46,911 nucleotides of DNA from Spirochaetales bacterium (GTDB lineage Bacteria; Spirochaetota; Spirochaetia; DSM-27196; SLAA01), in contig SLAA01000038.1 of the NCBI GenBank assembly GCA_007127105.1, positions 1 through 46,911 on the forward strand, read 5' to 3'. A program made the translations under genes and the position numbers. Positions 9,959-25,478 of this stretch are shown one piece after another. Under the pieces are notes generated by a model that worked only from the letters and a program-made list of their open reading frames with translations, was not told the DNA's origin and searched no databases. Position 1 is the first letter of the stretch, and every line of letters starts with the position of its first letter.

Positions 9959-10762
9959 TTACTCGTCTTCTATCTCCTCGAATACCTGTCGTATTCCTTC
10001 GGAGGCAACACGTAAATTATCCGACAATTCCACCAGGTTGGCAAGAATCTCCTCAATCCGATCTCCAGTCGTATGATCCTGAAGCCGAGCAAGGGTTGAC
10101 CCGTCTTCGCTTAGTCGGGCTCCAAGCATAGCGACCTCAAGAGCCGCCTGCTGAATAGTTGCTATGGTTGCCGCTATCTCGCCTTCACCGACCACGTCGT
10201 CAAGATTATTCAATAGGGCATCTGCCCGGGCGCTTGCCGAGCTCAGGTTTGCAACCACCTGGTCAACCATGTCGGCGTTGCGCTTCAAGAGCTCATTCAG
10301 CAGCTCCGAGGTCTCGCTTACATTTCGAACCGCCCGGCCCCCATCCGCCATGATCGAGGCCAGGTCGACCGTCGGGTCACCCTGAAAGCGGGTGCCGGGC
10401 TCGGCAATTGGGGCAGAACCGGAACCGGGATACACTTCCACCGTCTGGTCACCAAACATTCCACGAGTCAGAATCGCAAACCCCTCGTCTTCACGCAGGT
10501 ACAGGTTTCGGTCAAGTCGGATACCTACAATTACGCTCGTTTGGGTTTCGGGATTTATCTCAAGGCTGACGACTGAGCCAATCTTAATTCCCAGTTTGCT
10601 CACCACGGTGCCTCGGCTAATGGTACCTGCATGATTGAACTCTACCTCGTAGCTTGGTCCGGCGCTGAACACAAAATTCAAGGCAATAGAATACAGTGTC
10701 ACCAGAATTGCGGCCGAGATGAGCGTGAAGATGGCAGCTCGTGTCTTACTTCCTGTTCGCAT
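9959..10762 (-). CDS. mlaD: MlaD-like MCE domain protein (lipid transport)
   Basis: Substrate-binding component of an Mla-type ABC transporter, about 267 residues. One N-terminal TM helix (about 8-33) anchors a periplasmic MCE domain (about 36-115, with VVSKLGIKIGSV and GMFGDQTVEVYPGSG). A helical C-terminal region of about 140 residues follows, longer than in E. coli MlaD, and could form a tunnel or coiled coil between hexamer subunits. ATG at 10762 overlaps the mlaF stop by 17 bases and has GAGGAG upstream, so it was preferred to the longer frame from 10795. Family knowledge assigns phospholipid transfer between the two membranes; direction and lipid cannot be deduced. Confidence 0.9.
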   Translation of the reverse strand: MRTGSKTRAAIFTLISAAILVTLYSIALNFVFSAGPSYEVEFNHAGTISRGTVVSKLGIKIGSVVSLEINPETQTSVIVGIRLDRNLYLREDEGFAILTRGMFGDQTVEVYPGSGSAPIAEPGTRFQGDPTVDLASIMADGGRAVRNVSETSELLNELLKRNADMVDQVVANLSSASARADALLNNLDDVVGEGEIAATIATIQQAALEVAMLGARLSEDGSTLARLQDHTTGDRIEEILANLVELSDNLRVASEGIRQVFEEIEDE

Positions 10763-11504
10763 GGTACTCCTCGTGCAGAATCTCACGTTGTTCAATAAAG
10801 CGTGTTCGCAGTTCAGACTCAGGCCGCTTAAACTCGGCGCGTGCTTCTATTACGCTAATGCGGCCATCCTCAATCAGAGCCACAGTGTCACCAGCGAATA
10901 GGGCCAGATCGACATCGTGGGTGACAATGAGCGATGTGATATTCACCGTGTCACTGAGTTTCTTGATCATTGTATCCACCGTGCCAGCGCTAATGGGGTC
11001 AAGGCCGGTTGTGGGTTCATCGTAGAAAAGGTATCTGGGCTGGGTGATCATGCAGCGGGCGATGGCGGCTTTGCGTTTCATGCCGCCGGATAACTCCCGC
11101 GGCACAACATCAAGAAAGGGTGTCATCTCGACGATATCGGCATAGCGCCGTACCTCGCGGTCAATCTCTGCAGGGCTGTGTTTGCGATGATAAGCCAGTG
11201 GAAACGCAATGTTCTCGTAGACAGTCATTCCGTCGAACAAGGCGCCTTCCTGGAGTAGCATCCCTATTGCCGAGCGAATGACCTTAGCTTTGCGTGGTGA
11301 GGCTGTAACAATGTTGTGGCCGTCAATGTCGATAACTCCCTTGTGCGGCACCAGGAGGCCACAGATGCATTTCAGGAGCACCGACTTGCCAATGCCGCTA
11401 CGGCCCATAATGACCGTAGCCTTATTGTCTTCAATGACTATATCAAGCCCGTTGAGAACGCGCTTGTCTCGAAACCTCATATGGACACTGCTACATCTGA
11501 TCAA
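10746..11504 (-). CDS. mlaF: MlaF-like ABC transporter ATPase
   Basis: Cytoplasmic ATPase driving the MlaE permease, about 252 residues. It has Walker A (GRSGIGKSVLL), signature LSGGMKRK, Walker B (LFYDEPTTGLDP) and H-loop (IVTHDV). The open frame runs back to 11642 inside mlaE, but that stretch has no ABC homology. The chosen start is TTG at 11504: it overlaps the mlaE TGA stop as TTGA, has AAGGGGG 6 bases upstream, and places the protein start just before the conserved RCSSVHMRF strand. ATG at 11480 would remove part of that first strand. It lies between mlaE and mlaD, overlapping both. Confidence 0.92.
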   Translation of the reverse strand: MIRCSSVHMRFRDKRVLNGLDIVIEDNKATVIMGRSGIGKSVLLKCICGLLVPHKGVIDIDGHNIVTASPRKAKVIRSAIGMLLQEGALFDGMTVYENIAFPLAYHRKHSPAEIDREVRRYADIVEMTPFLDVVPRELSGGMKRKAAIARCMITQPRYLFYDEPTTGLDPISAGTVDTMIKKLSDTVNITSLIVTHDVDLALFAGDTVALIEDGRISVIEARAEFKRPESELRTRFIEQREILHEEYHANRK

Positions 11505-12283
11505 AGGAAGCCCCCTTGGCGGAGGCCAACACTCACCAACAGATCCGTTACCAGCACCACAAAGATATTGAGTACCAGTGCCTTGGTGGTTGTTTCGCCC
11601 ATATCCGCTGCACTTTCGCAGTAGAAGGTTCCAAAGCAACATGCGTTGAGTGAGACAAAGAAACCAATCAGGACGGCACGGATCATGGTGCTGGTAATAA
11701 CGGTGGCGTCCAGAAAGATAAAGGCGTTGTCCATGAATATGGGAAGGGGTAGTTCAAACCACCAGTTCAGCAGGAATGCCGAGCTAAAGATTGCAATCCC
11801 GTGCGTGATTCCGACAAATATCGGCAAAACCAGCAGCGAGGCGACCACTCTTGGAATAACGAGGTACTTGAACGGCTCAACGTCCATGAGCTTTAAGGCA
11901 TCCAGTTGACCGGTCATTTGCATGGAGCCAATCTCAACCGTCATTGCCGTCCCGACCTTGGCTGAGTAGATGGTTGAGGCCAGCATGACCGAGCCGGCGC
12001 GCAGGATCACCTCCACCGTCGCGGTGCTCACATAGCGGGTGGCACCCAGATAGCGTCCGTAGTAGCCGCTTACCCAGGTGAGCAACAGACTGAGCATTAT
12101 GCTGCCAGCGATTATTGGACCAATTGCGCTGTCAAAGACGAGAAAGAACTGCCTAGCGGTCTCTTTCCAGGGAAAGCCTCGACTGAACAACCATCGGGTG
12201 AAACTCCGATAGCGCTGCATAAGGGAGATGAAGTCGGAGTACATTCGAGCGGCTGTAGACGGTGTCGTTTGAACTTTGCTCAT
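11501..12283 (-). CDS. mlaE: MlaE-like ABC transporter permease
   Basis: Inner-membrane permease of the lipid transporter, 260 residues. It has the MlaE/Ttg2B layout: an N-terminal interfacial helix, then about five hydrophobic segments, with the conserved EIGSMQMTGQLDALKLMDVEPFKYLVIPR block (family signature EIGTMRVTEQIDAL) at about residues 115-145. It is the first gene of the envelope cluster, with AAGAG as a modest SD. No MlaB STAS-domain or MlaC carrier is encoded in the window, so the complex is a reduced E-F-D set unless partners lie elsewhere. It diverges from cysK over 180 bases. Confidence 0.93.
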   Translation of the reverse strand: MSKVQTTPSTAARMYSDFISLMQRYRSFTRWLFSRGFPWKETARQFFLVFDSAIGPIIAGSIMLSLLLTWVSGYYGRYLGATRYVSTATVEVILRAGSVMLASTIYSAKVGTAMTVEIGSMQMTGQLDALKLMDVEPFKYLVIPRVVASLLVLPIFVGITHGIAIFSSAFLLNWWFELPLPIFMDNAFIFLDATVITSTMIRAVLIGFFVSLNACCFGTFYCESAADMGETTTKALVLNIFVVLVTDLLVSVGLRQGGFL

Positions 12284-14725: not shown

Positions 14726-16780
14726 TTGCGAAAAACAGGGCCGAGTGTCTATACTCGGCCCATGTATCGCTCCCCATCTCAACAACGCACCACATACACC
14801 GGTGGCCTAAACCGGGAGTCCGACGACAAAGGCCTGGTCCGCCGACTCGCCGACGCTCTTCAGCGAGAGTCCTGGGGTAGAACGATCCTTGGTCTTGCCT
14901 GGACCGCCGGGCCGGTAACCTATTTTGCGCTTTTCGGTGGATACTACATAAGCTATGGTACCGCGCCACCGACCAACCTTATTCTGTACTTTGCAGTTTA
15001 CACCGTCATTGCTGGTGTGTTCGCGGTGGTCATGCGTATTGGGTACCATGTAGTACGTGGTGGAGAAAAGGAGGAGGCCGAGCGCTTGCTGACCGAGACG
15101 CTCGGAGACATTCCGACCGTGCTTATGACGGCTCGCGACCAACTGCTTGAGGGCTACGACCCAAGCAACCGCCGACTGCTCGCTGCCAAGCACGTTATAG
15201 AAAACTCCGACGCCCTTCCGAACGCCGTTGCTCGGGCAGTCTATGATCTGACCGAAAGCCGACAACTGGCAGATGCGGTTGAAGGAATAGATGTCTATAG
15301 GCGGGGCGGGCTTTACTCGCGGGTAGAAGATCTGCGTTTGGAAGTGCTGCCGGAGCTTGAAGGCGCCTTAGAGGACCTGAGGAAGCGCGCACCTGCACTC
15401 GCGGATTTGCTGCATGATCGTTTCCATGGCCGTGTTACCAACAAGGCCGCAGGCCGTATGCGCACGGAAGGCTTCCTGGAGCGGATACTCAGTGCGGGTG
15501 AGAACGACAACTTCACCTTTCTGGGGCTGAGCGATGTAGATGAGATCATGGTACTGCTCTTCGAACTACTGGCGGGCAGGGAGCTGCCATATTTCAGCCC
15601 GCACTATAGCGGAGGTCAGATTTTTCGTGACAGCTCACTCAACCTTGATAAGGCTCGTCGTGAGTACCGCAGCGCGGTGTTTGCACGCAACAGCCGTCTG
15701 CGCATGCTGGTAGAGCTGCTCAACGAGTCCGAGGAGATACACCGTGTTGCCGCCGCAATACCGGTGCTCCAGTCCGTGCAGGAAATGAGTTCCAACATCG
15801 TACGTGCTATTGAGACCTTGTATGAAGACATGGCTCGGCGCAGCGAGATGTTGCATCGTAAAGATACCGGCACTAAGGCTCGTGAGCACCTTCGTGATCA
15901 ACTTGCCCAGGAGCTGAGACATTTTCGCCAGACTATGCAGCTTTACCGTTCACTCTATGAAGCGAATCACCAGGTGGATCGGGCCTATACTGCGTTGTTT
16001 GCCGCGGAAAAAAAGTACTCCAATACCCGTCGGCGGCATGGAAAGGAGTTTGCCCTGCGCCTGCTTGGCTCGGAAGACAAGCGCGACGGGATTCGGATTA
16101 TTGAGCGAACCATTGCTCTTGACCTCCGTGAGCGCCAAAGTGTTGCACGGGTTCTTTCACCGGTTTTTCGGCGGTGGAATAGGTCGATGTCGGCTGCCGA
16201 GCGCATTCCTGACGAGGATCGCAGACGTGAAGCGCAGCATGCGCTGACCAAGCAACTGGCGGTGGAGTCGGCCTTGGCGCTAGATAAAAAGCTTCATGTG
16301 AGCAGGCCCGCGGTACAGTTTGCTATCGAGAGCACGAACGCCGCAGCGCTCGGTGCCATTGAAAGCGGTCTTACACGCTCATACCGCATTGGCTGGGCTA
16401 TGTCGCTTGTGCGGGAACTTGCGCCTCCGGGGCGAGAGGCGGTACACCGGATTGCCCGCTACTTAACGGTGCATCACCACCTCCCGCTCACTGCCGAGGC
16501 TCGAGCAGTTCTCGTAGAAGAGTTCGATGCAGACCCTGCAGAGCTCGACCGTATAGCTTTCGAGACATCTACCGAGGCTGCTCACGAGCTGACTGTCGGC
16601 CGAGAGCAACTCCTCCTGCTGGCACCGCCCTCGCGTAGATATCTGAGCCTCATGGAGCGACTCAACCGAGTGTTGGGAGTACGAGCGTCCTTGCGCTTGT
16701 CAAGCCTCCGGCCTGCGTACTATAAGTATGAGGATGCAGGAGTACAGCAGTCGGCAGCAGCATCGACAGACGCTTCGTGA
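14726..16780 (+). CDS. Unknown membrane-anchored helical protein
   Basis: Not recognised. 684 residues from a TTG start at 14726 that has AAGGAG 5 bases upstream. The alternative ATG at 14762 (residue 13) has no SD and sits directly after a 9-bp hairpin. Two TM helices (about 53-75 and 85-108) are followed by about 570 mostly cytoplasmic residues rich in Arg, Glu, Leu and Ala. These are predicted helical, with coiled-coil-like stretches around 320-420. No enzymatic motif, Walker box or metal cluster is visible. The C-terminal tail (QQSAAASTDAS) overlaps the argJ start by 53 bases. It lies between metY and argJ in a tight run leading into the MoxR/Bat genes. A scaffold or sensor role is speculation. 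Confidence 0.85.
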   Translation: MRKTGPSVYTRPMYRSPSQQRTTYTGGLNRESDDKGLVRRLADALQRESWGRTILGLAWTAGPVTYFALFGGYYISYGTAPPTNLILYFAVYTVIAGVFAVVMRIGYHVVRGGEKEEAERLLTETLGDIPTVLMTARDQLLEGYDPSNRRLLAAKHVIENSDALPNAVARAVYDLTESRQLADAVEGIDVYRRGGLYSRVEDLRLEVLPELEGALEDLRKRAPALADLLHDRFHGRVTNKAAGRMRTEGFLERILSAGENDNFTFLGLSDVDEIMVLLFELLAGRELPYFSPHYSGGQIFRDSSLNLDKARREYRSAVFARNSRLRMLVELLNESEEIHRVAAAIPVLQSVQEMSSNIVRAIETLYEDMARRSEMLHRKDTGTKAREHLRDQLAQELRHFRQTMQLYRSLYEANHQVDRAYTALFAAEKKYSNTRRRHGKEFALRLLGSEDKRDGIRIIERTIALDLRERQSVARVLSPVFRRWNRSMSAAERIPDEDRRREAQHALTKQLAVESALALDKKLHVSRPAVQFAIESTNAAALGAIESGLTRSYRIGWAMSLVRELAPPGREAVHRIARYLTVHHHLPLTAEARAVLVEEFDADPAELDRIAFETSTEAAHELTVGREQLLLLAPPSRRYLSLMERLNRVLGVRASLRLSSLRPAYYKYEDAGVQQSAAASTDAS
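14738..14761. repeat. Perfect 9-bp inverted repeat
   Basis: GGGCCGAGT at 14738-14746 pairs exactly with ACTCGGCCC at 14753-14761, with a 6-base loop. It ends one base before the ATG at 14762 and falls inside the TTG-initiated frame (codons 5-12). No U-run follows, so it is not a classical terminator. In RNA it could influence the choice of start codon; as DNA it could be an operator. Confidence 0.7.
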
Positions 16781-18023
16781 ACGTGGCAGCCTGCCGGAAG
16801 GTTTCCGGATAGCAGTGTCGAGTCTCCAGTTTGTTCCTGAGGAACGTCCGAGCACCGATCCCTTCAAAATGAACGTGAGTCTCATTCTTGCAGATGAGCC
16901 ATGCAGGAGCTTTGGACTCTCGCTCACAAAGAACCGTATTCCTGGAGCCCCAATCGTGCGAGCACGAGCCTTACTCGGGGGTGAGAGTCTGCAAGGAATC
17001 CTTATCAATAATAGAGTTGCAAATGTCTGCACCGAGACCGGAGTGGAGGACGCGGGAGATATACTTGCTCACCTTGGCGGTGAGCTGGGACTGAACCCCT
17101 CGGTTCTGCTCTCGTCCTCTACCGGAATTATTGGCTGGCGTTTGCCGGTAGAGCCCATGAAGGCCGCTCTTCCGGGGCTGGTGGCTCAGTTAGGACACGA
17201 CTCATTACTCACGGTGGCTGAGTTCATTATGACTACCGACTCCTTTCCAAAACTGCGACGAATAGAACTCGGTGGCGGCAGTATAGTTGGCATTGCGAAA
17301 GGCGCCGGGATGATTGAGCCGAACATGGCGACCATGCTGGCTTTTATCCTGACAGATCTCGATGTCCCACGTGAGCTGCTTAGAGAGGAGCTTGCAGGTG
17401 CTGTCAACGCCAGCTTTAACAGGATCTCGGTGGATGGGGATCAGAGTACCAGCGACATGGTGGTGGCGCTTGCAAGCGGTCGTCGTGAGAAACCGGATCC
17501 CGGCGAGTTTCGCGAGGCCTTAGCGCTCATCTGTCGCCAGCTGGCCGAGGACGTGGTGCGCAACGGCGAAGGAACGCGTCATGTGCTGCGCACAACGGTT
17601 TCCGGGGCTCAGTCCGAGCCACAGGCCGCTGCGGTGGCTAAGGCGGTGGTCAACTCGCCATTGGTCAAGACCGCGCTGTATGGAAACGACCCAAACGTTG
17701 GGCGTATCATTGCTGCGGTCGGAGACTACTGTGGAAATCATGATATTGCGATAGACTCGCACAACGTGCAGCTCTCTATAGGTGAAGAATCTGTGTTCTT
17801 TGCCGGGAGTTTCCACCTGGACAAGGCAAAGGAGCTGCGGCTTTCGCGTTACCTGCAGAGTACCGAGCTCCTGCCGAACAATACAGCCGGGTTGGAGTAT
17901 CCCCCGCATGAAATGTGTGTGGAGATTGCCATAGATCTAGGACTAGGTTCTGCCTCGGCCACGGTATACGGTTCCGATCTGTCGGATGAATACGTACGGA
18001 TCAACGCCGACTACCGAACCTGA
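16728..18023 (+). CDS. argJ: Bifunctional glutamate N-acetyltransferase / ornithine acetyltransferase
   Basis: Arginine biosynthesis enzyme, 431 residues. ArgJ transfers acetyl from N-acetylornithine to glutamate and, in the bifunctional type, can also use acetyl-CoA. The precursor cuts itself before a threonine that becomes the nucleophile, here T202 in KGAGMIEPNMATML, splitting the protein into alpha and beta chains. The oxyanion STGIIG motif is present at about residue 130. The start overlaps the previous gene by 53 bases; ATG at 16734 is an alternative and neither has a strong SD. The N-terminus SLPEGFRIA is typical of the family. No other arg gene is in the window. Confidence 0.93.
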   Translation: MRMQEYSSRQQHRQTLRERGSLPEGFRIAVSSLQFVPEERPSTDPFKMNVSLILADEPCRSFGLSLTKNRIPGAPIVRARALLGGESLQGILINNRVANVCTETGVEDAGDILAHLGGELGLNPSVLLSSSTGIIGWRLPVEPMKAALPGLVAQLGHDSLLTVAEFIMTTDSFPKLRRIELGGGSIVGIAKGAGMIEPNMATMLAFILTDLDVPRELLREELAGAVNASFNRISVDGDQSTSDMVVALASGRREKPDPGEFREALALICRQLAEDVVRNGEGTRHVLRTTVSGAQSEPQAAAVAKAVVNSPLVKTALYGNDPNVGRIIAAVGDYCGNHDIAIDSHNVQLSIGEESVFFAGSFHLDKAKELRLSRYLQSTELLPNNTAGLEYPPHEMCVEIAIDLGLGSASATVYGSDLSDEYVRINADYRT

Positions 18024-18055
18024 GCACGAACACACATCAACAGCAAGGACCGATA

Positions 18056-19054
18056 ATGAGCGACTTTGATACTATTGAACCCAGCGAGTTCGAACACCAG
18101 GTTAAGCGTGCCGGTGATCTGCTTGACCGCACGCGTACCGAGATTGGCAGACGGGTAGTTGGTCAGGGTGAAATGATTCGCGGCATGCTAACCGCTATAC
18201 TTGCGGGTGGACATGTGCTGCTTGAAGGGGTTCCCGGTCTTGCCAAGACACTTGCCGTTAAGACCCTTTCCGAGGCGGTAGATGCGGGTTTCAGACGCAT
18301 ACAGTTCACGCCAGACTTGTTGCCAGCGGACCTCATAGGCACCATGGTGTACCGGCAGCAAACCGGAGAGTTTGTACCGAGAAAGGGCCCCATTTTTTCC
18401 AATATCGTGCTAGCGGACGAGATCAATCGTGCACCCGCAAAGGTGCAGTCTGCAATGCTTGAGGCAATGGAGGAACGACAGGTTACCATTGGTGAGAACA
18501 CCTATCCATTACCGGACCCCTTTTTTGTCATGGCCACCCAGAATCCTATAGAGCAGGAAGGTACCTACCAGCTGCCTGAGGCACAACTTGACCGTTTCAT
18601 CCTGAAGTTGACGGTCGACTATCCGTCTAGTGAGGATGAACTGGCTATTCTCAGACGCGTTGGGATTCCGCACGATATCCCGGTAGAACGTGTTCTCTAC
18701 AAGGCTGACATTCGCAGACTCAAGGAGGTCGCTGCCCAGATTACTATGGATGAGCGGATAGAGGAGTACATTGTAGCGATAGTAACCGGCTCTCGCAGGC
18801 AGGAACGGGCCGTGAACTCCTTTGCTCGTTACATTGAGTTTGGAGCCTCTCCCCGGGCGACAATCTATCTGTATCGTTGTGCCAAGATCAACGCGCTCTT
18901 TGAAGGGCGGAGCTTTGTAATTCCCGAGGACGTTAAGGCGGTGGCAGCGGGGGTACTGCGACACCGGATCATTCTCTCGTATGAGGCCGAGTCCGAGGAA
19001 CTCTCGTCGGACGATCTGATTACCGGATTGTTGCAGTCGGTGCCAGTGCCGTAG
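18056..19054 (+). CDS. MoxR family AAA+ ATPase
   Basis: Chaperone-like AAA+ ATPase, 332 residues, cytoplasmic. It has the MoxR variant Walker A GVPGLAKT, Walker B (IVLADEINRA), sensor 1 (MATQNPIEQEGTYQLPEAQLDRF, the family hallmark) and a C-terminal lid domain. MoxR proteins assist metal insertion or maturation of VWA-domain partners. Here two VWA proteins and a DUF58 protein follow at once, the conserved MoxR-Bat layout. It begins 32 bases after argJ with AAGGA upstream, with no promoter or terminator visible between, so transcription probably continues from upstream. The DUF58 gene starts 7 bases after its stop. Confidence 0.95.
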   Translation: MSDFDTIEPSEFEHQVKRAGDLLDRTRTEIGRRVVGQGEMIRGMLTAILAGGHVLLEGVPGLAKTLAVKTLSEAVDAGFRRIQFTPDLLPADLIGTMVYRQQTGEFVPRKGPIFSNIVLADEINRAPAKVQSAMLEAMEERQVTIGENTYPLPDPFFVMATQNPIEQEGTYQLPEAQLDRFILKLTVDYPSSEDELAILRRVGIPHDIPVERVLYKADIRRLKEVAAQITMDERIEEYIVAIVTGSRRQERAVNSFARYIEFGASPRATIYLYRCAKINALFEGRSFVIPEDVKAVAAGVLRHRIILSYEAESEELSSDDLITGLLQSVPVP

Positions 19055-19061
19055 GTTTTTC

Positions 19062-19958
19062 ATGAAGAATCCCTCTCACTCCGAAGGAGATGCCGCACTC
19101 CTTTTCAAGAAGGTGCGGCGACTCGAACTGATCTCAAACAAGGTTGTTGAGAGCCTGCTTGCGGGCAACTACCGTTCGGTTTTCAAGGGTCCTGGCATTG
19201 AGTTTGATGAGACGCGTGAGTATGTCGAAGGGGACGATGTCCGCCTCATTGACTGGAACGTCAGCTCGCGTCTTGACGGCGTATTTACCAAGACCTTCCG
19301 TGAGGAACGTGAGCTCACCCTGTTCATGATTGTTGATGTTAGTCCTTCGGTGTACGACCTTACGCTTGACAGCGCACGGCGTGAAATCCAGAGTTTGCTT
19401 TTCTCTATTCTTACCTTTGCCGGAGTGCGAAACAACGACCGCATAGGCGGACTGTTCTTTTCCGACCAGGTGGAAGCCTGGGTACCTCCGCGTAAGGGCC
19501 GACGGCATGCGCTGCGTCTCATTCAGGATCTGTTGAGCTTTAAGCCGGTGGGTACTGGATCAAACCTTGAGCAAGCCCTGCGAGGTGCGAACGAAGGACT
19601 ACCGCGTCGTGGAATCTGTGTCATTATTTCTGACTTCAAAACCGCCGGTTTCTACCGAGAGTTGGCGCTTCTTGCTCGCCGGCACGATGTCATTGCGATT
19701 CGTGTAAACGACCCGGTGGAGGACGCCTTCCCTTCCGTGGGGTTGATACAGCTGGAAGATCCGGAAACCGGGAAAACTATTCTGGCACATGGGCGAGGGC
19801 GGGCCTTCCGGCGTCAGTTCAAGGATTTTTGGGAGGTGGATCGAAGAGCGTGGGCGCGCGAATGTGGTCGTCTTGGCGTGGCGGTGCTTGAGATTGGCGT
19901 TGACGAGGATCCGGGAGTTGAGCTGGTGCGCTTCTTTCGACGCAGGAGAAAGAAATGA
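19062..19958 (+). CDS. DUF58 domain protein (MoxR partner)
   Basis: 298 residues, no signal peptide or TM helix. The DUF58 signature lies at about 45-65 (FDETREYVEGDDVRLIDWNVS), followed by a degenerate VWA-like fold (FMIVDVSPSVYDL, about 90-102) that keeps the DxSxS metal-site pattern. DUF58 proteins always accompany MoxR and the Bat VWA proteins, and probably recruit or scaffold them at the membrane. Its stop overlaps the next start by 4 bases (ATGA at 19955-19958), so the pair is translationally coupled. Its exact biochemical function is not known. Confidence 0.93.
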   Translation: MKNPSHSEGDAALLFKKVRRLELISNKVVESLLAGNYRSVFKGPGIEFDETREYVEGDDVRLIDWNVSSRLDGVFTKTFREERELTLFMIVDVSPSVYDLTLDSARREIQSLLFSILTFAGVRNNDRIGGLFFSDQVEAWVPPRKGRRHALRLIQDLLSFKPVGTGSNLEQALRGANEGLPRRGICVIISDFKTAGFYRELALLARRHDVIAIRVNDPVEDAFPSVGLIQLEDPETGKTILAHGRGRAFRRQFKDFWEVDRRAWARECGRLGVAVLEIGVDEDPGVELVRFFRRRRKK

Positions 19959-20920
19959 GCCGCGGATGTAGGCGTTGCATGATCTGCCTTTTCCTGCTCG
20001 TCATGCTGACTTGGCCGAGTGTCCTTGGTTTCGCCGAGAGTTACACCGTGACCGAAAGTGTGGTGCTGCCCTCGGAGTTCTACGTAGGTGACCGAGCCGA
20101 ACTGCGTGTTCGTATCCGCACGGCGAGTAGTGTTGAGCTGATAGTGCCGGTCGCACTGCCGGAAGCCGCCTGGGCGGTGTTCCACGACATGAGGCTCTTT
20201 CCGATAGATGCCCAGCAAACCGAGATTCGGGTTTCCTTCACCGCCTTTCGACCGGGTACGCAAACTCTTCCCTCGGTAGATCTAGGCGGCATCCGCTTGA
20301 GCGGACTAACCGTGCATGTGGCCTCGGTACTTGAGGACGGCCGCACCGAACCGGCTCCGCTCCAAGCACCTATGCTGCTGCCGACAACGCGACTGCGACT
20401 CGCTGGCTTTGTAGCATTGATCATTGTTGGGCCATTGCTTCTCTGGATGCTGCTTCGCCTTGGGCGTGGTCAGATCTCGACCCTGGTTGCACGATACAGG
20501 CGGGCACAACCATACCGGCGTTTGCGGAAGTCGCTCAATCGGCTGGAGTCGAGTGTGGATGAGCTTGACGCTCGGAGCTTCTACATCGTTTTTCTTGAAG
20601 ATATCAGGCGCTACTTCACACAACGATTGGGACGCGACCTTATGTCGGCTACGAGTGTAGAGATCATTCACTATATCTCAGATATCGACGCCCGCGGATC
20701 AGATTTGATTGCAGAGGTGTTTCGGACCGGTGACCTGGTTAAGTTTGCCGGACGGTCGTCCAGTCCTGAACAACGCCGAAAACACCTGGATGGAGTGGCT
20801 CAGGTAGTGGCCGAGCTAGAGTCTTCACCGACTGGCCGCAGTGGCGTTGGTGGACAACGAGGGGGAGGAGCAGGCGGAAGAAAAGGTGTTCGAGGGGGGT
20901 CGCAACGTGTGGGTGCTTGA
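19955..20920 (+). CDS. BatD-like / DUF4381-like membrane protein
   Basis: 321 residues. A signal peptide (about 1-27) precedes a periplasmic beta-rich region of about 100 residues. One TM helix (about 149-168) and a cytoplasmic helical domain follow (VDELDARSFYIVFLEDIRRYFTQRLG). The cytoplasmic part resembles the DUF4381 proteins found in MoxR/VWA operons, where it sits between DUF58 and the first VWA gene. The extreme C-terminus is a low-complexity Gly/Arg tail. It overlaps the next gene by 14 bases if that starts at GTG 20907. The family assignment rests on position and layout rather than a strong motif. Confidence 0.8.
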   Translation: MSRGCRRCMICLFLLVMLTWPSVLGFAESYTVTESVVLPSEFYVGDRAELRVRIRTASSVELIVPVALPEAAWAVFHDMRLFPIDAQQTEIRVSFTAFRPGTQTLPSVDLGGIRLSGLTVHVASVLEDGRTEPAPLQAPMLLPTTRLRLAGFVALIIVGPLLLWMLLRLGRGQISTLVARYRRAQPYRRLRKSLNRLESSVDELDARSFYIVFLEDIRRYFTQRLGRDLMSATSVEIIHYISDIDARGSDLIAEVFRTGDLVKFAGRSSSPEQRRKHLDGVAQVVAELESSPTGRSGVGGQRGGGAGGRKGVRGGSQRVGA

Positions 20921-21908
20921 ACAACCGGTTGCGCTGCTGCTGTTGGCATTTGTGCCCCTTGTCATGTACTTGCGACATGGAGCGCCGAACCGGGGAGGCA
21001 GACTGCGGTTTCCTATATCGGTATGGGGAGGACGACACTTCGTTCCACGCGTCTGGAGTGTGGCATTTCTGTATCGACTCTCTATTCTTGCATTCTGGCT
21101 GGGTGTGGTGATATGCATTGTTGCCTTGTCTTCTCCGGCGAGGGTCTACCGGGAGCGAATTAACCTTACCCGTGGCATGGATATTGTGTTTGTGCTGGAT
21201 GAGTCTCCAACAATGGCAGCCATGGACTTTGCGCCCTACAGCCGGTTTGAAGCTGCCAAAAGAATTATTCGGCGCTTTGTGCGTGGCCGCGAGAATGATG
21301 CAATTGGGTTAGTCAGCTTCGCGCGTGACGCTGCTTTACGGGTTCCTCCAACCGTAGATCATCAGCATCTGCTTAAGGAACTAGATCAGCTCTCAATTAT
21401 GGAACTTGGGGACGGCACCGCAATTGGTTTGGGCATTGCCTTGGGAGCCTTGCATCTACAGTCGAGCAGCGCTGAACAACGAGTGCTTGTTCTCTTGACC
21501 GACGGAAAAAATAATGTAGCCGAAATACTGCCAGGTGTTGCGGCCCGTGTAGCCCGGGATCTCGGGGTGCGCGTCCATACCGTGGGAATTGGCTCGCCGG
21601 GAGAAATCCCTATTGAGTTCACCGATCCGCATACCGGTCGAAGCTACAGGGGCATCGTGACCGATGCTTATGAAGCCGATGCCCTGCGGGATCTGGCGGA
21701 GATTACGGGCGGAAACTTCTTTGAGGCAGCAAGTCTTGGTTCGCTTGAAGCGATCTTTCAGACGCTCGATACCGTGGAGACGGTTGAACGGCGGGCACGG
21801 GTGGAGGTACGCACCGAAAGTCTGTCCAGGCACTTCATCTTCCTTGGCTTCATGCTCATCATCTTTGACTTTGTGACGCGACGAGTGCTGTTGAGGGAGC
21901 GCTTATGA
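20907..21908 (+). CDS. batA: VWA domain membrane protein (BatA-like)
   Basis: 333 residues with two N-terminal TM helices (about 3-22 and 53-75), a periplasmic or cytoplasmic VWA domain (about 90-280) and a C-terminal TM helix (about 310-330): the BatA layout. The metal-ion-dependent adhesion site reads D98-x-S100-x-T102 rather than the usual DxSxS, and LLTDGKNN supplies the later aspartate. GTG at 20907 was chosen because a GAGGGGGG tract lies 7 bases upstream and the protein then starts at the hydrophobic helix. GTG at 20841 lacks an SD. Bat proteins were linked to aerotolerance in Bacteroides and to stress survival in Leptospira. The mechanism is unsettled. Confidence 0.9.
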   Translation: MWVLEQPVALLLLAFVPLVMYLRHGAPNRGGRLRFPISVWGGRHFVPRVWSVAFLYRLSILAFWLGVVICIVALSSPARVYRERINLTRGMDIVFVLDESPTMAAMDFAPYSRFEAAKRIIRRFVRGRENDAIGLVSFARDAALRVPPTVDHQHLLKELDQLSIMELGDGTAIGLGIALGALHLQSSSAEQRVLVLLTDGKNNVAEILPGVAARVARDLGVRVHTVGIGSPGEIPIEFTDPHTGRSYRGIVTDAYEADALRDLAEITGGNFFEAASLGSLEAIFQTLDTVETVERRARVEVRTESLSRHFIFLGFMLIIFDFVTRRVLLRERL

Positions 21909-22894
21909 CCGTGACTCATCCCGAAGTATTTCATCTCTTGGCGTTTCTCCCAGTTGTGGTTCTCGTGCTGGTGCTAAACTACCGGGCCGGTTGTAAGGAT
22001 ACAACCCGACTGATAGGGAGTCTGCATGAGACGACCGTGAGAAATCTCTTCTTGATCAAAAGCTTCTTTGGCGGCCTCAGTTTCGTTGCCTTCTATGTCT
22101 TGCTGGTTGCCTCTTTGGCAGGGATCAGCTGGGGTCTGACGACCGTGAGAGAGGACAGGAGCGGGCTCGATGTCGTATTCGCGGTCGATGTATCACTTTC
22201 AATGCTGGTGGAAGACGCCCAGCCGTCGCGGCTCGCGCGCAGCGGTGACCTCATGCGAGCCGTGGTGCAGGATCTGGACGGAGCACGTTTTGGCGTGGTG
22301 GCTTTTACCGGCAGCGCAACCCGTTTACTCCCACTTACCGAGGACAATGCGGCAATAGAGTCCACCTTGAACCTCATGGGCCCGGAGTTGCTCAGCACAC
22401 CCGGTACAGACCTTGAACGCGCGCTCACCACGGCGCTTGCGTCCTTCCCAGCCGACTCCGATCGACACCGTGCAGTCGTCGTCTTCTCAGATGGCGAGGC
22501 GCATAGTGGGGATGAAACCGGGCCAGCTCGTGAGGCTGCCGAGCGTGGGATTGGGGTGTTTACGGTGACGGTAGGGACTCCGGAGGGCGGTCCGGTGTCG
22601 CTGCGGGATGGTGGACGAGCCTTTGATCGAGACGGGAATCCGGTGCACAGTCGAGCAGAACCAGCCAGAATGCGACGAATCGCCGAAATTGCCGGGGGAG
22701 TTCATTTAGATGCATCCGAGGCCGGAGTTTTTTCACGCCTTCCCGATGCCTTGTCCGAGTTCGAGGGTAGACGCGACAGCGAAGGATTTCGTACGGTTCC
22801 TGTTGAACGTTACGGGTTTTTTCTTGGATGGGCCTTGGTCATGTTAGCTATCCACGTACTTGTGCGATCTCTGAGATGGAGGAGGTGGTTTTGA
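21905..22894 (+). CDS. batB: VWA domain membrane protein (BatB-like)
   Basis: 329 residues, paralogous to the preceding gene with the same TM-TM-VWA-TM layout. Its metal site is canonical: D95-V-S97-L-S99 (FAVDVSLSML), with VVFSDGEAHSG providing the later aspartate. The start overlaps the previous stop as ATGA (21905-21908). BatA and BatB are thought to form a membrane complex; having one variant and one intact metal site may divide their ligand binding. Coupled to the TPR lipoprotein gene through a TTGA overlap. Confidence 0.92.
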   Translation: MTVTHPEVFHLLAFLPVVVLVLVLNYRAGCKDTTRLIGSLHETTVRNLFLIKSFFGGLSFVAFYVLLVASLAGISWGLTTVREDRSGLDVVFAVDVSLSMLVEDAQPSRLARSGDLMRAVVQDLDGARFGVVAFTGSATRLLPLTEDNAAIESTLNLMGPELLSTPGTDLERALTTALASFPADSDRHRAVVVFSDGEAHSGDETGPAREAAERGIGVFTVTVGTPEGGPVSLRDGGRAFDRDGNPVHSRAEPARMRRIAEIAGGVHLDASEAGVFSRLPDALSEFEGRRDSEGFRTVPVERYGFFLGWALVMLAIHVLVRSLRWRRWF

Positions 22895-23478
22895 AAATGT
22901 ATCGGACACCTTTTCTGTTGCTGCTAGTGGCGCTGAGCGGATGCGGATTTGGGGATCCGCATCTTACCGTATTGCGAGGCAATTTAAGCTTTGAGCGCGG
23001 GGAGTTCCAGGACTCAATCGTTCGATATCTGGATGCACTGGAAGCCGATATAGAGTTTGAGAGTCATGTCTTGTACAACTTGGGGACCGTGTATCATGCG
23101 GTGGCTGAGAACGAGGCCGCCGTCGAGGCCTGGGATCTTGCTGGTGCCAATGCTCCACCGGATGTGCTCTTTGCTTTGCATCACAACAGAGGAAGCCTCT
23201 ACTATCGGCAAGGTCGTTACGCCGAGGCCTACGAGCAGTTTCGGCGAGCTCTCATGATCGAGCCCTCCTCCATGGGGTCCAAGATTAACCTGGAGCTTGC
23301 GCTGCAGCGCGTACAGGCGGCGGAGTCTGCCCCAGCAACCCGTAGTGGTGGTGCTGGCGCAAACGGCGCAGTTTCGGATGAAGCACGGCGCGTGTTGGAG
23401 TACATGCGCCGAAAGGAGACGGGACAGTGGCGGGCAACCGATACGCAGGAACCCCGAGACGTCGAACGCTACTGGTAG
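22891..23478 (+). CDS. batC: TPR-repeat lipoprotein (BatC-like)
   Basis: 195 residues. A short lipoprotein signal ends in LSGC (Cys at about 19), then about three tetratricopeptide-type helical pairs (about 25-145), each with the spacing of an A/Y..G..Y.A pattern. A charged tail follows. TTG at 22891 was chosen because it overlaps the batB TGA as TTGA and has GGAGG 5 bases upstream. ATG at 22897 is two codons in and 11 bases from that SD. The longer frame from 22828 lies inside batB. TPR proteins of Bat operons mediate protein contacts, and this one should sit in the periplasm, lipid-anchored. Confidence 0.88.
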   Translation: MKMYRTPFLLLLVALSGCGFGDPHLTVLRGNLSFERGEFQDSIVRYLDALEADIEFESHVLYNLGTVYHAVAENEAAVEAWDLAGANAPPDVLFALHHNRGSLYYRQGRYAEAYEQFRRALMIEPSSMGSKINLELALQRVQAAESAPATRSGGAGANGAVSDEARRVLEYMRRKETGQWRATDTQEPRDVERYW

Positions 23479-25478
23479 TATGCGGGCTGCTTCTCGCCGT
23501 CTCGTTACGAGCAGTCGGCGACGAACGCGTCCAACCCATAGTTCCAGGCGATCCGGTATCTGTCGGTGACGACTTCCTGCTGGAGTTGGAGTTCACCTAT
23601 CCGGGCGGGAATGAGCAACCCGAGCTATCTGCACCCGAGTACCCACCGCAGGTCACCAGCTCCGGCGAAGCAACAATAGAAGTCTCCTCTCGTCTGTCGG
23701 GCGCCTTTGGCGACGGGCGTCAAGTGCGGGTGAGGGTACCCTTACGTGCCGCATCCGCCGGGCGTGCGATCATTGAAGAGTTCAGCCTTGATTTTGGCGG
23801 GGATGTGGTACGGACAAAGCCGGTGCTGATTGAGGTGCGCCCAAGAGGTGGTGGGGAGATCCCGTTCGACTTAGTGTGGCATGTGGAGCTTGAGTCGCTG
23901 TACGTGGGGCAGACCATTCCCGTTTCGCTTGAAATGCGCAATCTTCGTGAAGCTGCCTTTCCGGACGACCTCCAGGTGAGCGAGCCGAACAACGCTGAGT
24001 TCGTGTCGGTGCCTGGACTGGGAGGCATACAGCGAAAAAGCATTGGTGATGTTACCCTCCTGACTATCCCGGCCGCAGCGTATCTGCTGACGCCCACCGC
24101 TCCGGGTGAGCTAACACTGCCTCAGGCTCAACTACGCGCGGGCGGAATGACCCGAACTGCCGCACCACGCAGTTTTACGGTGCAGGAACTCCCCGAAGAG
24201 GTGCGTGGCACTGGTGCATATGGGCAGTTTGACTACACCTTTGAACTTGATCCTCCGGCGCTCGTAGAAGGCAGTTCTGCTACTCTATTTGTTCGGCTGC
24301 ATGGCGAAGGGAATTTTGATCAGCTGCAACTGCCCTCTTTTCAGTCGCACGAGTTTATTGTGGCTGGTGAAGGAGTACGCAGACGCGTTGAACCCTCGGC
24401 AGGTGGGTACCAGGGGAGTATTGAGGCCCGTTACCGAATCACCCCACGGAGGGCCGGAACCATTGAGCTACGAGTTCCGCCCTTTGTCTGGTTTGATTCG
24501 GCGGAACAACGAGTGGCACGTATCGTGCCTTCACCAATCCGCTTGGATGTTGAGGCTCGTACGGATACGGCGCGGGCTCATGAGGAACTCGCCGAACGCA
24601 GACCACTAACTGTTGAAGAGATCGAGCGCATGCAACCGGCGAACTGGTATAGGCAGCCGAGTTCATACCTCTCACTCATTCCGGGCATGGTTGTGCTGGT
24701 TCTGGGGATGGTGGTTCGTAGACGGCGTGCCGCTGCAGGCTCAACCGCGCTGCTGGTAGGCCTCTTTGTCTTGACTAGTCTTCTTGGCGCATCTGCACCA
24801 CCCTTAACTCCGGACAACAGAGTCGCGCAAGCGGTAGAGGCTCATACGCAAGGAGATTACCTCGAGGCATTGAACATCTATGGTGAACTCATGACCGAGT
24901 GGCAGGAAAGCCCTGGACTGTGGTATAACGCAGGACTTGCCTATTTGGGTGCCGGGCGAAGCGCCGAGGCGGTCTATTCGCTGAGGCGTTCGGTTATGCT
25001 TGATCCTGGTCTTTCGACCTTACGTAACGAGCTTAACTCGGTGGAGGCTGAGCTTGAACTTGATAGGCAGTTAGAGCTTCCCTTTGTGTATCATCCTGAC
25101 CTTTTCTTTCTGCTGATGATCGTGGCGTTGAGTGCGGCGGCCGTTCTTGGGGGGCTTTCGGCGCTACGAGGCGGCGCCATAATTGGAATAGTCCTCCTGT
25201 GTTTTTGTGGCATTCTGAGTCTTGGGGCTATGGTGTACTCAGCCCAAGTTCTCGAGCACCCGGTGACCGTTGTTGGGAGCGAAGGCGTGAGCATGAGGCG
25301 CATTCCGGATCACGAGGCCGGAGCATGGTTACAGCTTCGTGCCGGGTCAGCGGTTGACGCCTCGGTGAGGCACGGTGATTTCGTGCTGATCAGGACCGGT
25401 GACCGCGTTGAGGGTTGGGTTGAAGCAGACTCCCTCATAGGTACTGGCGGCTTTACGGTAAGTGGCAATGGCAGATAA
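23427..25478 (+). CDS. BatD-type protein fused to TPR and SH3-like domains (BatD-BatE fusion)
   Basis: 683 residues in several parts. A signal peptide (about 1-32) precedes a BatD 'oxygen tolerance' beta-sandwich region (about 35-375). Two TM helices follow (about 413-430 and 440-457), then a TPR unit (about 465-545: ALNIYGELMTEW...LWYNAGLAYLGAGRSAEAVYSL), two more TM helices (about 560-606) and a C-terminal SH3-like segment (about 610-675). In Bacteroides and Leptospira the BatD and BatE (TPR/SH3) parts are usually separate genes, so this looks like a fusion. GTG at 23427 has AAGGAG 9 bases upstream and overlaps batC by 52 bases. It is the last Bat gene before smr. Confidence 0.88.
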   Translation: MAGNRYAGTPRRRTLLVVCGLLLAVSLRAVGDERVQPIVPGDPVSVGDDFLLELEFTYPGGNEQPELSAPEYPPQVTSSGEATIEVSSRLSGAFGDGRQVRVRVPLRAASAGRAIIEEFSLDFGGDVVRTKPVLIEVRPRGGGEIPFDLVWHVELESLYVGQTIPVSLEMRNLREAAFPDDLQVSEPNNAEFVSVPGLGGIQRKSIGDVTLLTIPAAAYLLTPTAPGELTLPQAQLRAGGMTRTAAPRSFTVQELPEEVRGTGAYGQFDYTFELDPPALVEGSSATLFVRLHGEGNFDQLQLPSFQSHEFIVAGEGVRRRVEPSAGGYQGSIEARYRITPRRAGTIELRVPPFVWFDSAEQRVARIVPSPIRLDVEARTDTARAHEELAERRPLTVEEIERMQPANWYRQPSSYLSLIPGMVVLVLGMVVRRRRAAAGSTALLVGLFVLTSLLGASAPPLTPDNRVAQAVEAHTQGDYLEALNIYGELMTEWQESPGLWYNAGLAYLGAGRSAEAVYSLRRSVMLDPGLSTLRNELNSVEAELELDRQLELPFVYHPDLFFLLMIVALSAAAVLGGLSALRGGAIIGIVLLCFCGILSLGAMVYSAQVLEHPVTVVGSEGVSMRRIPDHEAGAWLQLRAGSAVDASVRHGDFVLIRTGDRVEGWVEADSLIGTGGFTVSGNGR

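Follow-up and report, generated by a model that had tools for sequence, protein, structure and literature searches.

XpaC/Halogen_Hydrol (PF10112) is presumably the described family closest in layout to the protein treated here (the orphan protein), both having an N-terminal two-helix membrane hairpin that is followed by helices. Both occur in Spirochaetia (XpaC in 16 of 118 genomes), but XpaC proteins are ~200-260 aa long, against ~600-672 aa for the orphan proteins, and the two share no profile similarity. A profile of 18 orphan-family members was compared with one of 11 spirochaete XpaC proteins, from 14 that were fetched; the profile-profile probability was 0.3% (E 0.21) with the alignment falling outside the hairpin, and kinship was rejected. 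In a small sample, where most negatives are unlisted, XpaC-type proteins were present in some genomes lacking the orphan gene (G015, G021, G022) and in no listed carrier of it (G000, G013, G050).

The orphan gene lies in a contig of 46,911 nucleotides from a Spirochaetales bacterium (SLAA01000038.1; the whole contig is the window below), where its neighbors include the BatA/BatB-type VWA proteins encoded in the MoxR operon. These too are membrane proteins, but they carry a VWA domain that the orphan protein lacks, and in them conservation is lower in the membrane segments than in the bodies, the reverse of what is seen in the orphan protein. PMC3557215 reports Bat homologues in all families of Spirochaetes. 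Among titles and abstract openings, the literature search returned nothing on the orphan family, and nowhere were argJ, MoxR and a spirochete found together.

The gene, its start and its putative promoter

The features of the locus are as follows.

14726..14755, + strand: putative promoter TTGCGA-18-TATACT; TTG 14726 is part of the -35 hexamer
14738..14761, + strand: perfect 9-bp inverted repeat with a 6-base loop; encloses the -10 box TATACT and ends at the ATG
14762..16780, + strand: orphan gene with the corrected (probable) start ATG 14762, 672 aa plus stop
14873..15055, + strand: membrane hairpin, residues ~38-98, WG..LAWTAGPVTY.AL.GGYYI.YG..APP.L..YF..YT.IAG...RI.Y
15062..16561, + strand: predicted cytoplasmic, predominantly helical body, residues ~101-600; helix prediction from a low-confidence model

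An earlier note had described an open reading frame at 14726-16780 (+) with a TTG start and 684 aa, and it is present exactly so. We consider it a true gene rather than a chance frame because the whole frame stays open in homologues at ~30-96% identity, and because differences from the 96%-identical relative in locus L030 fall mainly at third codon positions (24/14/177 at positions 1/2/3), a pattern that points to purifying selection. The start is probably better placed at ATG 14762 (672 aa) than at TTG 14726, since in the 26 loci with a readable motif the distance from the chosen start codon to the invariant hairpin motif WT[AT]GPVT is 37-48 residues, and since TTG 14726 falls inside the promoter. 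The 53-base overlap with argJ noted earlier holds if argJ starts at ATG 16728; this overlap recurs in the same-genus relative L034 and is absent in three sister-genus loci (L035-L037). A search of the window's own genome found no paralogue.

The TATACT -10 box ends 6 bases ahead of ATG 14762, a spacing that would fit a leaderless mRNA. By eye, TTGC...TATACT is kept in all eight own-family loci that include the upstream region (the window, L030, L032 and L004-L008); in the sister genus it lies farther upstream, and GGAGG precedes a TTG start in 4/5. In the window the full pattern is present a single time, against 0.12 expected by chance. Promoter-like sites in general number 6 in 6 kb against 3.0 expected, so that the site by itself is unexceptional and the promoter argument rests on its conservation. 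Because the site is conserved in its own family, the orphan gene most likely begins a transcript of its own instead of merely ending that of cysK-metY. The inverted repeat at 14738-14761, which was scored as a minus-strand terminator-like site, is also found in L030 and, imperfectly, in L032, and by eye was not seen in the sister genus; it is a possible operator or start-site hairpin.

Relatives and gene neighborhood

The absence of any known family, claimed earlier, holds for Pfam, NCBIfam, PHROG, PADLOC and PDB profiles. Searches of Pfam and NCBIfam (with the single protein and with 18 members) and of PHROGs and PADLOC (18 members) gave scattered weak matches, the best at E ~0.001, that were inconsistent between members, and no Pfam or NCBIfam match came near cut-off for any of the 18. 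The PDB profile search gave no match (best E 0.2). No AAA_3, VWA, BatD or TPR domain was found in the 18 members, and neither blastp nor an hhalign comparison of four profile blocks detected an internal repeat.

Of 100 genomes drawn around the window, its own included, 27 have relatives of 603-672 aa, and so do 23 of the 46 genomes of its own order, the distribution being patchy. By taxonomic family (f1 to f8 are our labels) the carriers are 9/9 in f1, 7/7 in f7, 2/2 in f5, 1/1 in f6, 3/8 in f4, 1/7 in f3, 0/8 in f8 and 0/4 in f2, counts in which several genomes are incomplete and some matches are fragments at contig ends. Four carriers (G050, G063, G068, G075) lie outside the order. A broader sample of 392 genomes from the phylum contained three with a match, none of them new, a rate that may be low since G050, G063 and G075, which may have been drawn, are not among the three. 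Plasmids, phages and viral contigs yielded no relative. A pattern scan that reached beyond the phylum, sensitive to close relatives only, returned four loci, all spirochaetal, and the named relatives are metagenome-assembled genomes of Spirochaetaceae or Spirochaeta sp. Where resolved, the gene tree follows taxonomic families (f1 together, 99/98; f5 inside f7, 100/100; f13 with f26, 100/100), its deep forks being unresolved. Judged from these sequences, the gene would found an undescribed, lineage-restricted inner-membrane family, so far only in some Spirochaetia.

Pfam bore out the neighbors named earlier, with metY upstream and argJ, MoxR and DUF58/VWA proteins downstream. On the minus strand at 9962-12283, divergent from cysK, is an MlaE-type permease, beside which are what look, from their sequences, like an ABC-type ATPase and an MCE-like protein. 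Around relatives 20 loci were fetched, several of them short contigs. The gene has cysK and metY upstream in 9 of these, spread over three taxonomic families, and argJ and moxR downstream in 4, all from its own family. With the window added, an M16 peptidase is present in 8/21 loci and an AcrB-type pump in 6/21. Elsewhere the neighbors are a DEAD-box helicase and a sulfate permease, a Na+/H+ antiporter, an ABC ATPase, an MCP, a GFO/IDH oxidoreductase with DctP, an HxlR regulator with a hydrolase, or a tRNA synthetase; the sulfate permease follows the orphan gene in the two f5 loci, and in two loci the antiporter gene immediately precedes it. No neighbor is constant among the loci compared. We read the position between metY and argJ as local gene order, not partnership.

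The argJ-moxR pair itself is independent of the orphan gene. MoxR and ArgJ were each found, in independent searches, in all 27 genomes chosen (16 carriers and 11 non-carriers), and by their coordinates moxR follows argJ immediately on the same strand in all of these Spirochaetia genomes except G070, 26 in total (16728-19051 in the window), carriers and non-carriers alike. The orphan gene adjoins the pair in 5/5 own-family genomes and in 0/11 other carriers, where the pair is on a different contig in nine, 1.37 Mb off in G013 and ~300 kb off in G068. We know of no obvious link between arginine biosynthesis and the MoxR/Bat system.

Conservation of hairpin and body

The layout proposed earlier, two N-terminal transmembrane helices and a long helical cytoplasmic part, stands as a plausible reading, with its two helices unequal: hydropathy shows the second clearly in 17/18 members, while the first, rich in Gly and Tyr, is below the hydropathy cut-off in 18/18 and might instead be re-entrant or interfacial. 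The AlphaFold model has a pLDDT of 38.8 and a pTM of 0.22 (5 near-identical sequences, three fragments), and because of this low confidence we infer both the helical character of the body and any oligomer.

The membrane hairpin is the best-conserved part of the orphan protein. Mean pairwise identity among the 18 members is 63% in the hairpin (78% in the first helix, residues 46-67, and 57% in the second, residues 75-98), 40% in the body (101-600) and 24% in the N-terminal tail. The best-kept block of the body is residues 225-330. Conservation in the second helix is confined to one face (Y76 F77 Y80 T81 A84 G85 A88 R92 Y95), whereas the first, AWTAGPVTYxALxGGYYIxYG, is conserved at nearly all positions, with residue 58 polar (N/Q/T/H) in 16/18. 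Conservation on all sides suggests that the first helix would be buried among protein, with the hairpin in an oligomer or against a partner or ligand. Its [GSA][YF]G segment is reminiscent of a K+ filter, a likeness that was rejected because the first Gly varies and the pore helix is missing.

As a control, the window was compared with three sister-genus loci over its first 27 kb, for the listed proteins with at least 19 aligned predicted membrane residues. The ratio of identity in membrane parts to that in the rest is 1.70-1.86 for the orphan protein and 0.43-0.99 for six neighbors (two VWA proteins, the 321-aa protein without a family, a BatD-like protein, an M16 peptidase and an ABC-2 permease), a comparison in which the orphan hairpin was set by hand (46-98) and the others by hydropathy, some partners being truncated at locus ends. 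Apart from the orphan protein, only the AcrB-type pump exceeds 1 (1.34-1.39), and there the membrane part is a working part.

Proposed working and alternatives

The reading that we prefer, with about an even chance of being right, is a membrane-hairpin device that forms an oligomer and bears a helical cytoplasmic domain for regulation or binding, working alone, in a lineage-restricted Spirochaetia family. The N-terminus and the body would face the cytoplasm. The first helix would pack against the second and against other protein, and the hairpin may assemble into an oligomer or contact a membrane partner or ligand, while the body might sense, gate or recruit. The gene would act on its own, outside MoxR/Bat and outside cysteine/methionine synthesis. 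A more specific version, of which we are doubtful, is a new two-helix device of Spirochaetia whose oligomer would have the Gly/Tyr/Trp-rich first helix as its working part (a pore, or a lipid or ligand site), gated or coupled by a 500-residue helical domain of unseen fold. The family joins the many uncharacterized spirochaete membrane proteins as a clean and testable case, with the hairpin as its probable working part.

The earlier note had offered the protein as a new component of the MoxR/Bat machinery or as an anchor for metabolic enzymes. A component of the MoxR/Bat (VWA) machinery is very improbable, and the reading is already largely refuted. In each of the five own-family genomes searched for both, the gene does lie just ahead of argJ-moxR in the same orientation, and from its promoter it may head their transcript. 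The co-occurrence test proposed earlier was negative, however: the gene lies away from the pair in all 11 carriers outside the family, and MoxR is present in all 11 non-carriers. The vWA-MoxR-associated domain VMAP-M7 matched only 3/18 members, at a best E of 0.0098 that is not significant, as one of 22 families at such a noise level. An anchor or scaffold for the cysteine/methionine enzymes CysK and MetY is somewhat less improbable, though still quite unlikely. The cysK-metY adjacency recurs in three families, so that a link to sulfur amino acid metabolism keeps some plausibility, and the sulfate permease of the f5 pair would suit this reading too. Against it, the adjacency was not seen in 11/20 loci (some truncated where a contig ends), the synteny block contains the M16 peptidase and the efflux pump as well, and the gene has its own promoter-like site. 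Anchoring in general is disfavored by the hairpin being the best-kept part, which is not expected of a passive anchor and is the reverse of the neighboring membrane-anchored proteins.

Two further readings concern the hairpin itself. The orphan protein might belong, in divergent form, to one of the known two-TM helical families, the best candidate being XpaC/Halogen_Hydrol, with which it shares the general layout of an N-terminal hairpin and then helices; the profile comparison given above, aligned outside the hairpin, and the lack of any Pfam or NCBIfam match near cut-off in 18 members make this unlikely. There is also only a slight chance of a small pore or channel, in which oligomeric first helices would line a pore gated by the cytoplasmic body. 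The near-invariance of that helix, its richness in Gly, Tyr, Trp and Thr, polar residue 58 and, in two loci, an antiporter gene just ahead of the orphan gene would suit a pore, but in the [GSA][YF]G segment neither the first invariant Gly nor the pore helix of a K+ filter is present, and the neighbors are not constant.

The test that removed MoxR/Bat as a false lead also showed argJ-moxR to be a constant pair in Spirochaetia. In the window, the row from moxR onward (18056-25475) reads MoxR, DUF58, the 321-aa protein without a family, VWA, VWA, TPR and BatD, then an Smr-domain protein; several consecutive reading frames in it overlap by a few bases.
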